Positions 59,338 through 64,000 of a DNA stretch of 64,000 bases are shown here, in pieces. Numbering within the stretch: the stretch's first letter is position 1; each line of letters starts with the position of its first letter. The DNA is from Draconibacterium sp. (GTDB lineage: Bacteria > Bacteroidota > Bacteroidia > Bacteroidales > Prolixibacteraceae), in NCBI GenBank assembly GCA_011620585.1, contig WOYV01000078.1, positions 1-64,000 on the forward strand, written 5' to 3'. The position numbers and the translations under genes were made by a program. The notes beneath the pieces were generated by a model. The model saw nothing but the letters and a program-made list of their open reading frames with translations, ran no database searches and was not told the DNA's origin.

Positions 59338-60879
59338 ATGACGGATAAAACGATTAAACGAAAACACTATTTGTTGTTTACTGCGGGAGGATTAAGTGTT
59401 ATTCTCTTTTTGCTGCTGTTCAATAAAACAGTTCATTATACCTCTACCAACGAATTTTGTAATTCCTGCCATGTGCATCCGCATGCCGAGGCAAGCTGGC
59501 GTTTATCAACGCACCATAATACGTCAAGCGGAGTTTCTGTAAATTGTGTGGATTGTCACTTGCCGGCTGAAGACAACACAGCCCGTTTTCTCACCCGAAA
59601 AGCATATCATGGGTTTCACGATTTGTATGCTTACATGACCATGGATACTGAAGCGATTGATTGGGAAGCTAAACGTACAACAGAAGCTGCCCGGCGCTTT
59701 GTTTATGAAGACGGTTGTTTGAAGTGCCATACCAATATGTTTCCTGCAACCCTCAGCCCCAAAGGTAGCGAGCAACACATCAAATACATTCGCGATCCCG
59801 AAAACAGTTCATGTATACAGTGTCATCACGGTGTTGGGCACTACCGGGGCGAAACCGTCGGATTTGCTGATGAAGAAGAGAATGCTGGCCCAAAAGAGAT
59901 TTACAAGGAATTAACCGAAGTAAAGGAATTTAAAAACTTTACAGAAAAGTTACCGGGCACAGCAGTTGCATTTAAAATGATTGCCATTCCAGGTGGGCAA
60001 TTTAAAATGGGAAGCCCTGCCGATGAAGCGTATCGCCGAACAGACGAAGGCCCGGTGCGTGAAGTGGAAATAAATAATTTCTGGATGGCAGAAATAGAAG
60101 TTTCATGGGACGAATACCTTGCTTTTTTCACAGCAACCAGTTCGCAGGGGCGCAAGGAAGCTGTTGAGGAAGAAGTGGAAACCGATGCTGTTTCGGGAGC
60201 TACACCTCCTTGGGGCGCTCCTGACCAGGGATGGGGAAAGGGCAGCCGCCCAGCCATTACCATGAGTCATCACGCCGCAGAAACCTATTGTAGATGGTTA
60301 AGTCAGGTTACCGGAAGAAAGTATCGCTTGCCTACCGAAGCCGAATGGGAATATGCAGCACGCGGAGGCACTGAAACACCCTATTTCTTCGAAGGTTCGC
60401 CAAAAGATTACGAAGCCGGTGGTTTTTTCAAAAAGCTGTTTGGAACAAATACCGATACACTTGATACCTATGCAATTTACCAGGGAAACAGTCCAGACAA
60501 AACCCAGGAACCTGCAAAGGTTAAACCCAATCCGTTTGGATTAAAAAATATGTTGGGCAACGTGTCTGAATTCTGTTCCGATTATTACGATCCGCAAGTT
60601 TATCGGAAATATCCTTCGGGTGTGGTGAAAAATCCGCGTGGGCCACGCAGTGGTAGAGAGCATGTGGTGAGAGGAGGATCTTTCCTCAATTCGCCAAAAG
60701 ACCTTCGTGCAGCACGCCGCGATTACACAAGAACCACCGACTGGCTGGTTACTGATCCCCAGATTCCGAAAAGTATCTGGTGGTATTCTGATGTTAAAAG
60801 TGTTGGATTCAGGGTAGTGTGCGAATACGACCCTGACGGCCTTGGAAATGAGAAAAATAAAACAAACGACAATGAATAA
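59338..60879 (+). CDS. NrfH-type tetraheme cytochrome c fused to a SUMF1/formylglycine-generating-enzyme fold
   Basis: This 513-residue protein has a membrane anchor (about 11-29) and four CxxCH haem sites at 41-45, 70-74, 127-131 and 159-163, in the NapC/NirT/NrfH layout (FCNSCHVHP, NCVDCHLP, GCLKCHTNM, SCIQCHHG). NrfH proteins take electrons from quinol. The CxxCHxM methionine of NrfH is a histidine here. From about residue 211 a SUMF1/EgtB/PvdO fold follows (MIAIPGGQFKMGS, TYCRWLSQVTGRKYRLPTEAEWEYAARGG, GNVSEFCSD, RGGSF). The FGE catalytic Cys pair is replaced by Asn451 and Leu456, so it is not a standard sulfatase activator. It is cotranscribed with the oxidoreductase that follows. Confidence 0.9.
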   Translation: MTDKTIKRKHYLLFTAGGLSVILFLLLFNKTVHYTSTNEFCNSCHVHPHAEASWRLSTHHNTSSGVSVNCVDCHLPAEDNTARFLTRKAYHGFHDLYAYMTMDTEAIDWEAKRTTEAARRFVYEDGCLKCHTNMFPATLSPKGSEQHIKYIRDPENSSCIQCHHGVGHYRGETVGFADEEENAGPKEIYKELTEVKEFKNFTEKLPGTAVAFKMIAIPGGQFKMGSPADEAYRRTDEGPVREVEINNFWMAEIEVSWDEYLAFFTATSSQGRKEAVEEEVETDAVSGATPPWGAPDQGWGKGSRPAITMSHHAAETYCRWLSQVTGRKYRLPTEAEWEYAARGGTETPYFFEGSPKDYEAGGFFKKLFGTNTDTLDTYAIYQGNSPDKTQEPAKVKPNPFGLKNMLGNVSEFCSDYYDPQVYRKYPSGVVKNPRGPRSGREHVVRGGSFLNSPKDLRAARRDYTRTTDWLVTDPQIPKSIWWYSDVKSVGFRVVCEYDPDGLGNEKNKTNDNE

Positions 60880-62212
60880 AAATCAACTATCGCGCAGAAA
60901 TTTTCTTGAAAGATCGGCACTTATCGGAGCTGCAGGAGTGATCGGAATGAGCGCTCTCAGTTCATGTTCGAAATCGGGGAAAGAAATAGATTACGAATTT
61001 CCACCTTTACTCGATCAGGCGCCCGACGGCAAAAAACTAAAAGCCGGGCTGGTTGGATGCGGAAACCGCGGGACCGGGGCAGCGCTGAATTTTCTGGCTG
61101 CGGGCCACGATCTGCATTTGGTAGCATTGGCCGACGTTTTTGAAGACAAAGTTTGGGACTCGCGCGATAAATTGTTAAAACAACGGGTAGATGTTCCAAA
61201 GGAAAATTGTTTCTGGGGTTTCGATGCTTACCAACGCTTGCTCGATCTGGATATTGACATTGTAATTTTAGCTACTCCGCCACATTTCAGGCCCCTGCAT
61301 TTCGATGCCGCTGTGCAGGCAAAAAAGCATGTTTTTCTCGAAAAACCTGTGTGTGTTGATCCGGTGGGAGCAAGACAAATTATGGCTACTGCAAAAAAGG
61401 CTGAAAACCTCGGACTTACCGTGATTACCGGAACACAGCGACGTCATCAGCGCGATTATCTCGAAACGTACAAACAAGTTGCAGGGGGGGCCATTGGCGA
61501 ACTGAAATCGGCAAAAGCCTATTGGTTACAATCGCACGTTTGGTTCCGTACCCGCGAAGAAGGCTGGAGCGACATGGAATACATGCTTCGTAACTGGAAC
61601 AACTTCTGCTGGCTTTCTGGCGATCACATTCTGGATACGCACGTGCACAACATCGATATTATTAACTGGTTTATGGGGAAACACCCTGAAGAAGCAATAG
61701 GGTTTGGTGGTCGTGCTCACCGTTTAACCGGCGACCAGTACGATTTTTTCAGTATCGATTTTGATTTTGGAAACGGAATCTTCTCACACAGTTTCTCGCG
61801 GCAGGTTGATGGCTGTGCCAATCAGCTCGGCGAAGTGATTATGGGGACCGAAGGTTACACCAACTGTAAAAATACGATCTATAATTTCGATGGTTCGGTT
61901 AAATGGACTTATGAATATCCGAAAGACGAAAATGGAAAATCAACTGGCGTTGTGAAAGTTTCGCCTTACGTTCAGGAGCATATTCATCTTGTAACATCTA
62001 TCCGCACCAATAAGCCGGTGGTAGAAGCTGAACGAACAGCCATTTCGACATTAACGGCAATTATGGGAAGAACTTCGGCTTACACCGGGCAAAAAGTAAC
62101 CTGGGAAGAAATGATGACCTCGACCGAAAGACTCGGGCCAACGGTTTATGAAATGGGTCCTGTCGACATGGAGTTTCCGGTGCCGGTTCCCGGAACAGCA
62201 CACAAAGCATAA
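60872..62212 (+). CDS. Tat-exported Gfo/Idh/MocA-family oxidoreductase
   Basis: The ATG at 60872 overlaps the end of the preceding gene by eight bases and gives a Tat signal (SRRNFL at 7-12, followed by a hydrophobic stretch). A possible lipobox (ALSSC) follows, so it may be a Tat lipoprotein. It has a Rossmann motif GLVGCGNRGTGA (about 59-70), the catalytic Lys in LEKPVCVDP (EKP 157-159) and HILDTHVHNIDIINWFMG in the substrate domain. Family members oxidise sugars with a bound NAD(P). Export with a bound cofactor, next to a membrane cytochrome c, points to redox chemistry in the periplasm. The substrate is unknown. Confidence 0.93.
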   Translation: MNKNQLSRRNFLERSALIGAAGVIGMSALSSCSKSGKEIDYEFPPLLDQAPDGKKLKAGLVGCGNRGTGAALNFLAAGHDLHLVALADVFEDKVWDSRDKLLKQRVDVPKENCFWGFDAYQRLLDLDIDIVILATPPHFRPLHFDAAVQAKKHVFLEKPVCVDPVGARQIMATAKKAENLGLTVITGTQRRHQRDYLETYKQVAGGAIGELKSAKAYWLQSHVWFRTREEGWSDMEYMLRNWNNFCWLSGDHILDTHVHNIDIINWFMGKHPEEAIGFGGRAHRLTGDQYDFFSIDFDFGNGIFSHSFSRQVDGCANQLGEVIMGTEGYTNCKNTIYNFDGSVKWTYEYPKDENGKSTGVVKVSPYVQEHIHLVTSIRTNKPVVEAERTAISTLTAIMGRTSAYTGQKVTWEEMMTSTERLGPTVYEMGPVDMEFPVPVPGTAHKA

Positions 62213-62218
62213 AAACGA

Positions 62219-63163
62219 ATGAAAATTTCTGTTGTCATACCGCTGTATAACGAAGGTGTTCTGGTTGAGCGCTTGGTTGACGAAGTTCGTCAACAGCTTG
62301 ATCTGATGGACGAAACTTTCGAATTGGTATGTGTCGACGACGGAAGCACGGATGATACACTGGCTAAATTGCTCGATCTGAGAAATAGCAAGAATAATCA
62401 ACTCAAATTGATTGCACTTTCCAGAAATTTCGGGTTGCAGGCAGCAATTACCGCCGGACTGGATCATGCTACGGGCGATTTTGTTGTAATTATGGATGGC
62501 GATTTACAGGATCCTCCTGAAATGATTCCGGTACTGATTTCGAAAATAAAGAATAGCAAGGCAGATATTGTTTCGGCGGTGCGAAATACCCGTCAGGAAA
62601 AATTCAGCAAACGTTTTTATATCAACGTATTTCATAAAATTTTTAAAAATATCTCGGAAAGCGAGCAGGTAGAACAAAGCGGTAATTTTTCAGTTCTGAA
62701 CCGAAAAGCCGTTGATGCCGTTCTTCGGTTTTCGGAACACAATCGTTATTTCCCGGGCATTCGGAACTTTATCGGATTCAAACACGAATTTGTTCTTTAC
62801 GACCGTCCCGACAGACCGGAAGGATCGGCTAAGATGAGTCGGAAGAAATTGTTTGCCCTGGCCGCCGATGCAATTTACTCGTTTTCGAAGTGGCCCATTA
62901 AAGCATGTTTGTACCTTGGGTTGTCGGGTGTGGTGATTTTCCTGCTGGCGATTATTTATACGCTGGTCTCCAAAATTACAGGGCTTGCACCTTTTGGCTG
63001 GTCGTCTACATTTTTAGCCATCAGTTTTTTTGGTTCGGTTCAGCTTACTTTCCTCGGATTGATCGGGGAATACATTTTCAGGATTTACAAGGAAGTTCAA
63101 AAACGCCCGATCTACTTTGTGAAAGAGGTGTACGATAATACAGGTTCAGAAGAAACAAAATAG
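62219..63163 (+). CDS. GT2 glycosyltransferase, DPM1/GtrB-like
   Basis: This 314-residue protein has a GT-A domain (SVVIPLYNEG, VDDGSTDDT, MDGDLQDPPEM with the DXD motif) and two C-terminal membrane helices with an FLGLIGEYIFRIYKEVQ ending, the polyprenyl-phosphate glycosyltransferase form. It would transfer a sugar from a nucleotide donor to undecaprenyl phosphate, making a donor for a membrane GT-C enzyme such as the next gene. Six bases separate it from the oxidoreductase gene. Confidence 0.92.
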   Translation: MKISVVIPLYNEGVLVERLVDEVRQQLDLMDETFELVCVDDGSTDDTLAKLLDLRNSKNNQLKLIALSRNFGLQAAITAGLDHATGDFVVIMDGDLQDPPEMIPVLISKIKNSKADIVSAVRNTRQEKFSKRFYINVFHKIFKNISESEQVEQSGNFSVLNRKAVDAVLRFSEHNRYFPGIRNFIGFKHEFVLYDRPDRPEGSAKMSRKKLFALAADAIYSFSKWPIKACLYLGLSGVVIFLLAIIYTLVSKITGLAPFGWSSTFLAISFFGSVQLTFLGLIGEYIFRIYKEVQKRPIYFVKEVYDNTGSEETK

Positions 63164-63165
63164 AA

Positions 63166-64000
63166 ATGAATAATACATCCAATATATTTTCTGCACGAAA
63201 CGTGTTTTTTGCCAGCCTGATTTTGGCCGGTATTTTACTCGCGTTTCTGGCTCCCAACGCTGCAGTAAATGTGGATGAAATGTTGCATTATCCTCATGCC
63301 AAACAGGTGGTTAACTGGTATTTTACCGGGGGGAAAGATGTATCGTGCCTTGATACCCCAACAAGCAACTTAAAATATTACGGGCAATCGGTGGATAATT
63401 TTACAGCACTGGTTAACCGGGTTTTTCATATTCAAAACGAATTTTTGACACGACATTTAACCGGAGCATTTTTCTTTTGGTTACTGTTGGTTTTTGGCGG
63501 TTTGCTTGGTAAAGAACTGACAAAATCTTACTGGACATCGGTATTGGTTGTACTTTCCCTGCTACTTACCCCACGTTTATTTGGACAAGCGTTCGGAAAT
63601 TTAAAAGACATTCCTTTTGCCGCGGGTTATGTTGCAGGTATCCTATATATAATTCGGATTTTAAAGACATTCCCAAAACAAAGCTGGCGCAATGTAATTT
63701 CTTTGGCAATAGCCATTGCATTTGCCATATCGGTGCGTGCAGGCGGTTTAATTTTGTTCGCCTACCTGGCATTGGGCATTCTTGCCTTATTTGTTGTAAA
63801 GCCTTTTTTACTTAAATATATCGTTTCAACTAAATCTTGTATTGTAAGGCTAACGGGCCAGGGTTTGACAATAGCAGTAGCCGGGTATTTTCTCGGTTTA
63901 CTGTTCTGGCCCTTTGCCTTACAGGACGTTTTTCGCCACCCGTTGGAAAGCCTGTCGATGATGGAGCATTATGCGGTGAGCATTAAGCAAATTTTTAACG
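63166..64000 (+). CDS. GT39/GT-C-like integral membrane glycosyltransferase, 5' part
   Basis: The frame opens at ATG 63166, two bases after the GT2 stop, and stays open to the window end, so the 3' end is missing. The 278 visible residues have many hydrophobic helices. The first extracytoplasmic loop holds VNVDEMLHYPHAKQVVNW, an acidic pair after helix 1 as in GT39 and ArnT-type GT-C enzymes. Later segments include LLTPRLFGQAFGNLKDIPFAAGY. It would use the polyprenyl-linked sugar made by the upstream GT2. The acceptor is unknown. Confidence 0.8.
   Translation, partial: MNNTSNIFSARNVFFASLILAGILLAFLAPNAAVNVDEMLHYPHAKQVVNWYFTGGKDVSCLDTPTSNLKYYGQSVDNFTALVNRVFHIQNEFLTRHLTGAFFFWLLLVFGGLLGKELTKSYWTSVLVVLSLLLTPRLFGQAFGNLKDIPFAAGYVAGILYIIRILKTFPKQSWRNVISLAIAIAFAISVRAGGLILFAYLALGILALFVVKPFLLKYIVSTKSCIVRLTGQGLTIAVAGYFLGLLFWPFALQDVFRHPLESLSMMEHYAVSIKQIFN

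Follow-up and report, generated by a model that had tools for sequence, protein, structure and literature searches.

Closest described systems

NapC/NrfH proteins normally oxidise menaquinol. In NrfH, Met49 and Asp89 are reported to be essential for this oxidation (PMC10654088). The fusion protein described here resembles NrfH, NapC and CymA in its N-terminal membrane helix, its four CxxCH motifs and the Lys and Asp residues at the NrfH quinol site. It differs from them in having a C-terminal SUMF1 domain and a CxxCHxH motif at the first haem, in an NrfH score below the family cut-off, and in belonging to a genome where full-length NrfA was not found. On the SUMF1 side, the fusion shares the fold and the Pfam family of FGE (SUMF1, PF03781), but both FGE cysteine positions are changed in all of the sequences aligned, and the fusion has a loop and a DPQ-PxS-WW C-terminal stretch of its own. 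PvdO is described as necessary for periplasmic dihydropyoverdine oxidation by an electron path that is unclear, and it was purified without detectable cofactor (PMC6206403). Both PvdO and the fusion have a periplasmic FGE-like domain, and PvdO is the first structural match; unlike PvdO, the fusion is joined to haems, has other neighbour genes and scores below the cut-off of the PvdO model.

For exported Gfo/Idh/MocA enzymes, the means of recycling the nucleotide outside the cytoplasm is, to our knowledge, unsettled. A published account identifies BT2158 as a periplasmic glycoside 3-dehydrogenase (PMC11300592), and TIM-barrel enzymes able to eliminate 3-keto-glycosides have been reported (PMC10628242). 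Like the BT2158, LacABC and Agrobacterium GlycDH systems, the last with its TIM-barrel eliminase, the fusion loci encode an exported Gfo/Idh/MocA protein with ThuA or TIM-barrel neighbours. Unlike those systems, for which a tetraheme-SUMF1 protein is not named in the available parts of the reports, they encode such a protein, and their Gfo scores below the family cut-offs. Extracytosolic carriers flavinylated by ApbE form a further point of comparison, with the motif D-x-x-[ST]-G-A-[ST] (PMC12052999). The window protein holds an exact copy of these seven residues and apbE genes occur near some of its homologues, but the fusion is without the FMN-binding domain family and the motif is not conserved across the family. 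Two flavinylation surveys use none of the words NapC, NrfH, sulfatase and MocA in their main text. Among the matches listed in a search of the open literature, which leaves subscription papers mostly outside, neither the fusion nor a SUMF1-Gfo pair was the subject of a paper.

A tetraheme cytochrome fused to a SUMF1 domain

The window, the whole stretch of 64,000 nucleotides that was analysed, contains the fusion gene near its 3′ end (Table 1). The protein is encoded by a single 513-aa open reading frame with an ATG start, in which Pfam detects Cytochrom_NNT (PF03264) at residues 10-169 (E 1.6e-27, 96.8 bits against a gathering score of 24.1) and FGE-sulfatase (PF03781) at residues 213-462 (E 8.4e-45). 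These matches bear out an earlier note on this DNA, made from the letters and their translations, which had described the gene as an NrfH-type tetraheme cytochrome joined to a SUMF1 fold.

Table 1. Coordinates of the fusion gene, its motifs and its neighbours in the window
Feature	Position	Strand	Basis
Tetraheme NapC/NrfH-type cytochrome and SUMF1 domain in one protein	59338..60879	+	ORF, Pfam, alignment
N-terminal membrane helix and four-haem domain, residues 1-175	59338..59862	+	Pfam PF03264, hydropathy scan
Haem 1 motif C41-NSC-H45 and His47 (place of NrfH Met49)	59458..59478	+	Alignment to NrfH 2j7a
Haem 2 motif CVDCH, residues 70-74	59545..59559	+	Kept in 81/81
Lys88 and Asp95 (putative quinol site)	59599..59622	+	Alignment with NrfH
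Haem 3 motif CLKCH, residues 127-131	59716..59730	+	Kept in 80/81
Haem 4 motif CIQCH, residues 159-163	59812..59826	+	Kept in 81/81
SUMF1/FGE-fold domain, residues 196-500	59923..60837	+	Pfam, AF2 model, Foldseek
Conserved loop 283-299, DAVSGATPPWGAPDQGW; match to the ApbE flavinylation motif at 283-289	60184..60234	+	Alignment
Asn451 ... Leu456, the FGE cysteine positions	60688..60705	+	Never Cys in 81
C-terminal stretch 469-485, WLVTDPQIPKSIWWYSD, subfamily hallmark	60742..60792	+	Alignment
Gfo/Idh/MocA oxidoreductase, Tat signal, lipobox-like Cys	60872..62212	+	Pfam, NCBIfam, alignment
GT2 glycosyltransferase; L007 homologue ArnC/PgfS-like	62219..63163	+	Pfam
PMT-like membrane glycosyltransferase with TPR tail; continues to C99:65115 past the window	63166..64000	+	
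Divergent LamG_3 protein, transmembrane (by eye), 840 aa	56581..59103	-	Pfam

Relatives were collected by a contig scan that yielded 98 proteins, and the best 80 of the 98, ranked by whole-length match, were aligned with the window protein to give 81 sequences. In all 80 relatives one open reading frame spans both domains (in L057 it starts at the contig end), a figure that, because of the ranking, does not gauge how often the two domains occur apart. A frameshift or missed stop, the event by which the earlier note said that its reading could fall, is therefore ruled out, and the fusion and its conservation are about certain.

The four CxxCH motifs, at residues 41, 70, 127 and 159, form a complete set in 80 of the 81 sequences; haems 1, 2 and 4 keep their cysteines and histidines in every sequence, and haem 3 is lost in one. 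His47, His59, His147 and His168 are invariant as well. Haem 1 reads CNSCHVH, with C41, C44, H45 and H47 kept throughout, and the position of NrfH Met49 is thus occupied by His47 in every sequence, so that the CxxCHxM motif becomes CxxCHxH, as had been noticed in the window protein. In a pairwise alignment with NrfH 2j7a, a PDB match, Lys88 (kept in 80/81) and Asp95 (81/81) pair with Lys82 and Asp89, which we take to be quinol-site residues. The most hydrophobic 19-aa stretch of the window protein begins at residue 10, and a hydropathy scan found a transmembrane-like segment ahead of haem 1 in 76 of the 81 sequences. The NCBIfam NrfH model TIGR03153 gave 75 bits and did not reach its cut-off of 134.

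NrfA is absent from the window, as had been stated, and full-length NrfA (PF02335) was not found in the whole genome, where there are two partial matches, the better one covering 61 of 438 positions in a 792-aa frame, above the Pfam cut-off, and the other covering 141 positions, below it. The only two strong NapC/NrfH matches in the genome are the window protein and a second fusion that is 51% identical to it, each beside a Gfo gene. A third, partial NapC/NrfH-like match lies in a 510-aa frame of the same genome (G000:C81:21678-21941); its contig also has a weak NrfA-like match, at a distance of about 6.5 kb.

The SUMF1 domain

The alignment columns of Asn451 and Leu456, presumably those of the catalytic cysteine pair of FGE, never hold Cys in the 81 sequences, and the replacement read earlier from the window protein is correct in both residues. 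Judged by its sequence, the domain is unable to act as an FGE by means of these cysteines. The alignment, which supplies the conservation check that had been proposed for the haem sites and the replaced residues, indicates that the changes at haem 1 and at the FGE cysteine sites are family-wide and not special to the window protein.

An AF2 model of the domain (pLDDT 88, pTM 0.88) was compared with known structures by Foldseek. The first match was PvdO (5hha, TM 0.77 on the target), followed by FGE, with EgtB structures lower in the list; the matches also included the Treponema variable protein 2y3c, whose fold serves ligand binding. With the PvdO model NF051459, the score was 92 bits and the cut-off is 500. 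EgtB and OvoA, which are nonheme iron enzymes, have a DinB domain with iron ligands. Since no DinB family was among the Pfam matches of the fusion, and since the first fold match is PvdO, a protein purified without detectable cofactor, the nonheme-iron idea raised earlier appears doubtful.

Averaged over blocks of ten residues, the pLDDT of the model falls below 70 only around residues 266-295 and 466-485. Columns at 95% identity make up 59% of residues 283-299 and 82% of residues 469-485, against 29% of the remaining domain. This combination of poor prediction and conservation is only a hint, and the RLPTEAEWE fold core is equally conserved and is well predicted. The loops around 283-299 and 469-485 may bind a cofactor or a partner.

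Distribution of the fusion

In a phylum survey, profile matches were found in 80 of 395 genomes; among the matches listed, the full fusion occurs in at least three genomes (G000, G347 and G345) and the others consist of the SUMF1 part, which is common by itself. In a survey of 295 genomes of the window's order, 39 gave a match: the fusion is present in 38, and G546, the 39th, has a contig-end fragment of the haem domain. Three fusion matches among those listed in the order survey have one in-frame stop each. In G624 and G546 the haem and SUMF1 parts seemed to be encoded separately, an effect of contig ends, and an apparent triple fusion with Gfo in G629 (a 940-aa frame) came from upstream read-through, the real gene being 482 aa long and followed by Gfo. 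A 3.1-kb contig labelled Desulfobulbaceae (L002) carries a fusion 80% identical to that of the window together with a LamG-type neighbour, and it is probably misbinned Bacteroidota.

A probable Gfo/Idh/MocA partner gene

The frame downstream of the fusion, which overlaps it by 8 nt (60872-60879), encodes a protein with Gfo/Idh/MocA domains, an EKP motif and a Tat-type signal. For the analysis of neighbours, a set of 84 fusion loci was assembled from the 80 relatives, the two copies of the window's genome and two more, and counts in this set are inflated by close relatives. A downstream gene was counted if it had the same orientation and lay no more than 700 nt away. Of the fusion loci, 81 have room for such a gene, and 78 of these have Gfo/Idh/MocA there, at a median gap of 27 nt. 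The same holds for 31 of 36 loci of a haem-less SUMF1 subfamily and for 0 of 19 other SUMF1 loci (Fisher p 1e-17 for the fusions and 2e-10 for the haem-less loci against the other SUMF1 loci). Within 6 kb, and with neighbour profiles that were built from the studied loci themselves (4 sequences for ApbE, 2 for GMC), Gfo was found at 80 of 84 fusions, 33 of 36 haem-less loci and 1 of 20 control SUMF1 loci, these controls being weaker profile matches of which at least 18 come from one Bacteroidota family. The three fusion loci without the standard downstream gene are L049, with a divergent Gfo at 213 nt, L077, in which the Gfo frame overlaps the fusion because of a long start, and L063, which has no Gfo beside the fusion. 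Another copy outside the 84-locus set, the second fusion of G504 (L175, 6858-8393), also has no Gfo and is followed by SusC/SusD-like frames (by eye).

A Gfo tree was built with 32 of the 78 fusion-linked proteins, all 31 haem-less-linked proteins and 25 of the 38 second copies from fusion loci. The fusion-linked and haem-less-linked sets form neighbouring clades (0.59 at the joining node, 0.99 for the wider clade); none of the 25 second copies falls inside them, and the clade also takes in three additional copies from haem-less loci. The linked proteins share the EKP motif (78/78 fusion-linked, 30/31 haem-less-linked) and an RR signal (74/78 and 27/31). In at least 95% of the 78 fusion-linked proteins, alignment position 42 (numbered in the 456-aa frame of the window) is a Cys in a lipobox-like context, so both the fusion and its Gfo may be membrane-tethered; this position is Ala in 19 of the 31 haem-less-linked proteins. 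A count of the lipobox pattern in the signals (62/78 fusion-linked, 26/31 haem-less-linked) was set aside, since in the haem-less examples shown the pattern seems to strike the Rossmann motif. The NCBIfam glycoside 3-dehydrogenase model NF058561, which has a cut-off of 750, gave 39 bits for the window Gfo and 139 for the second copy of L022. Altogether, it is highly probable that the fusion and the Gfo/Idh/MocA protein are a functional pair.

The haem-less homologues of other Bacteroidota are about 315-435 aa long, with signal-like N termini by eye. Two hallmarks unite them, a [DE]-x-x-[STA]-x-P-[ST] loop and a C-terminal DPQ-P-S-WW stretch; the set comprises 36 of the 38 subfamily matches, and the 19-20 controls lack the C-terminal stretch. 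Because they also occur with Gfo, a SUMF1-Gfo pair can do without the haems, and because Gfo beside the two kinds of SUMF1 protein falls into neighbouring clades, the pair looks like the older module, of which the fusion would be the version wired to a quinone-type cytochrome. A GMC dehydrogenase is near 5 of the 36 haem-less loci. A link of these homologues to NirV or denitrification was dropped, as inspection by eye found nothing of the kind among the neighbours. In L101 and L103, the haem-less SUMF1 gene stands beside a YceI-like gene, identified by Pfam for L101 and by eye for L103, and is followed by CxxCH-containing frames in place of the downstream Gfo; L101 also has ApbE.

Proposed role and alternatives

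The SUMF1-Gfo partnership is well supported, and from it we infer a chemistry and a direction. We propose that the fusion is the membrane-anchored redox partner of the adjoining exported Gfo/Idh/MocA oxidoreductase. Gfo would use tightly bound NAD(P) to oxidise a hydroxyl on the ring of a sugar or glycan; the SUMF1 domain would dock on Gfo through its conserved loops, forming a physical complex, and accept the reducing equivalents; the four haems would carry them to the membrane, where the Lys88/Asp95 site would pass them to menaquinone. A step from hydride to single electrons would lie between Gfo and the haems. The hydride of NADH does not pass straight to haem, and no proven one/two-electron adaptor was identified in the system. 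We give this quinone-linked sugar oxidation by the fusion and Gfo an even chance. His47 in the place of the Met reported as essential in NrfH counts against this role, as do L063 and L175, fusions with no adjoining Gfo. The existence of the pair without haems, the Gfo scores under the glycoside 3-dehydrogenase cut-off, the GT2 and PMT neighbours and the in-frame stops of three fusion matches also weigh against it.

Flow from the SUMF1 side into menaquinone appears likelier than a SUMF1 domain fed by the haems. The earlier note had suggested a SUMF1 oxidase, reductase or binding module fed in that way; a periplasmic redox or binding module is indeed probable, and feeding by the haems presupposes one direction of flow. 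As a whole, that reading recognised the redox module and overlooked the conserved Gfo partner, the haem-less version and the sugar context. If the proposed role is right, the fusion is a testable wire from an exported Gfo/Idh/MocA protein to the quinone pool in anaerobes, and it suggests a possible route by which they connect extracytoplasmic sugar chemistry to the respiratory membrane. The SUMF1 subfamily, which family models file with FGE despite the missing cysteines, now has a likely partner, and the fusion may also illuminate PvdO, its closest solved fold.

The same complex could run in reverse, with electrons passing from menaquinol through the haems to the SUMF1 domain and Gfo reducing a periplasmic keto sugar. 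This would be the usual direction for NapC/NrfH proteins and would make use of the retained Lys88 and Asp95, and the GT2 and PMT neighbours fit the tailoring of a lipid-linked sugar; however, haems of this family have low potentials that would make keto-sugar reduction from menaquinol unfavourable, and with His47 replacing Met49 we regard reverse flow as unlikely. It is likewise rather unlikely that the SUMF1 domain is a mere lectin-like docking or glycan-binding scaffold and that the haem electrons go to another, unlinked acceptor. Loss of the FGE cysteines and the ligand-binding fold of 2y3c would agree with such a scaffold, but the adjacency to Gfo and the related clades of one Gfo subfamily point to a dedicated partner. 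Very improbable, in turn, is an NrfH variant serving the reduction of nitrite or another nitrogen oxide: despite the NrfH model score, the match to 2j7a and the partial NrfA-family match above the Pfam cut-off, the score stays under the family cut-off, the genome yielded no full-length NrfA and the neighbour is a Gfo/Idh/MocA gene.

A further alternative concerns the missing adaptor. The SUMF1 domain might be a covalent FMN carrier, ApbE loading FMN on Thr289 and the flavin turning the hydride of NAD(P)H into single electrons for the haems, which would solve the hydride-to-haem problem. The sequence DAVSGAT at residues 283-289 fits the ApbE motif exactly. The strict motif is found in 37 of 84 fusions and in none of the 36 haem-less homologues or the 20 other SUMF1 proteins; an acidic residue at 283 and a hydroxyl residue at 289 occur in all 120 fusion and haem-less members, and G287 and T289 are fixed in the 84 fusions. 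Genes for ApbE lie within 6 kb of 13 of the 36 haem-less loci (4 of the 13 confirmed by Pfam) and of 0 of 20 controls (Fisher p 0.002), and the window's genome encodes three ApbE proteins. Against this, Pro occupies position 288 in 46 of 84 fusions and in all 36 haem-less members, position 287 is Arg in 29 of those 36, the second fusion of the window's own genome reads DAISGPT, a single one of the 84 fusions has apbE nearby, and L031 has the strict motif, yet ApbE was not found in its draft genome. No FMN-binding domain family was among the Pfam matches of the fusion.

Since Pro288 and Arg287 are so widespread, the motif match may be a chance variant of the subfamily loop, produced by loop drift, and covalent FMN on this domain seems improbable to us. 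A new class of covalent flavoprotein with FMN on Thr289 of a SUMF1 domain, and with it a full relay from sugar through bound NAD, FMN and haems to menaquinone, is a correspondingly long shot. Were it true, the relay would make an exported Gfo/Idh/MocA dehydrogenase respiratory, and in the haem-less proteins a dedicated ApbE, with a relaxed motif, would act on the same loop. The presence of ApbE was dropped as a test of flavinylation because it is uninformative, 43 of 46 genomes (46 of 80 loci given) having one. The neighbouring Gfo, TIM, ThuA, GMC and glycosyltransferase proteins were also set aside as flavinylation targets, none of those counted having the strict motif.

Sugar and glycan context

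In the window, Gfo is followed after 6 nt by the GT2 gene, and this after 2 nt by the PMT-like gene. Near the fusions, GT2 and PMT genes are found at 34 and 35 of the 84 loci, respectively. They suggest the building of an envelope glycan rather than catabolism in the window's lineage, where the substrate of the pair could accordingly be an envelope glycan. In 22 of 78 gene-called loci, the gene immediately upstream of the fusion, whichever its strand, belongs to the same cluster as the divergent LamG protein of the window. The C-terminal part of this LamG protein matched no Pfam family over the cut-off, and the protein is possibly a glycan-sensing transmembrane regulator.

The cassettes of relatives include a second Gfo with weak similarity to BT_2158, ThuA (within 6 kb of 21/84 fusions), Tat-exported TIM barrels and ResB/CcsA haem-attachment genes, whose counts (4/84 and 7/84 fusions) are likely underestimates. 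Isomerase-like TIM-barrel proteins are encoded near 29 of the 84 fusions and 16 of the 36 haem-less loci. Beyond the window, about 3.5 kb past the end of the operon, an AP_endonuc_2 TIM-barrel gene with an RR-type signal by eye (C99:68596-69522, minus strand) lies beside the C-terminal part of a sulfatase.
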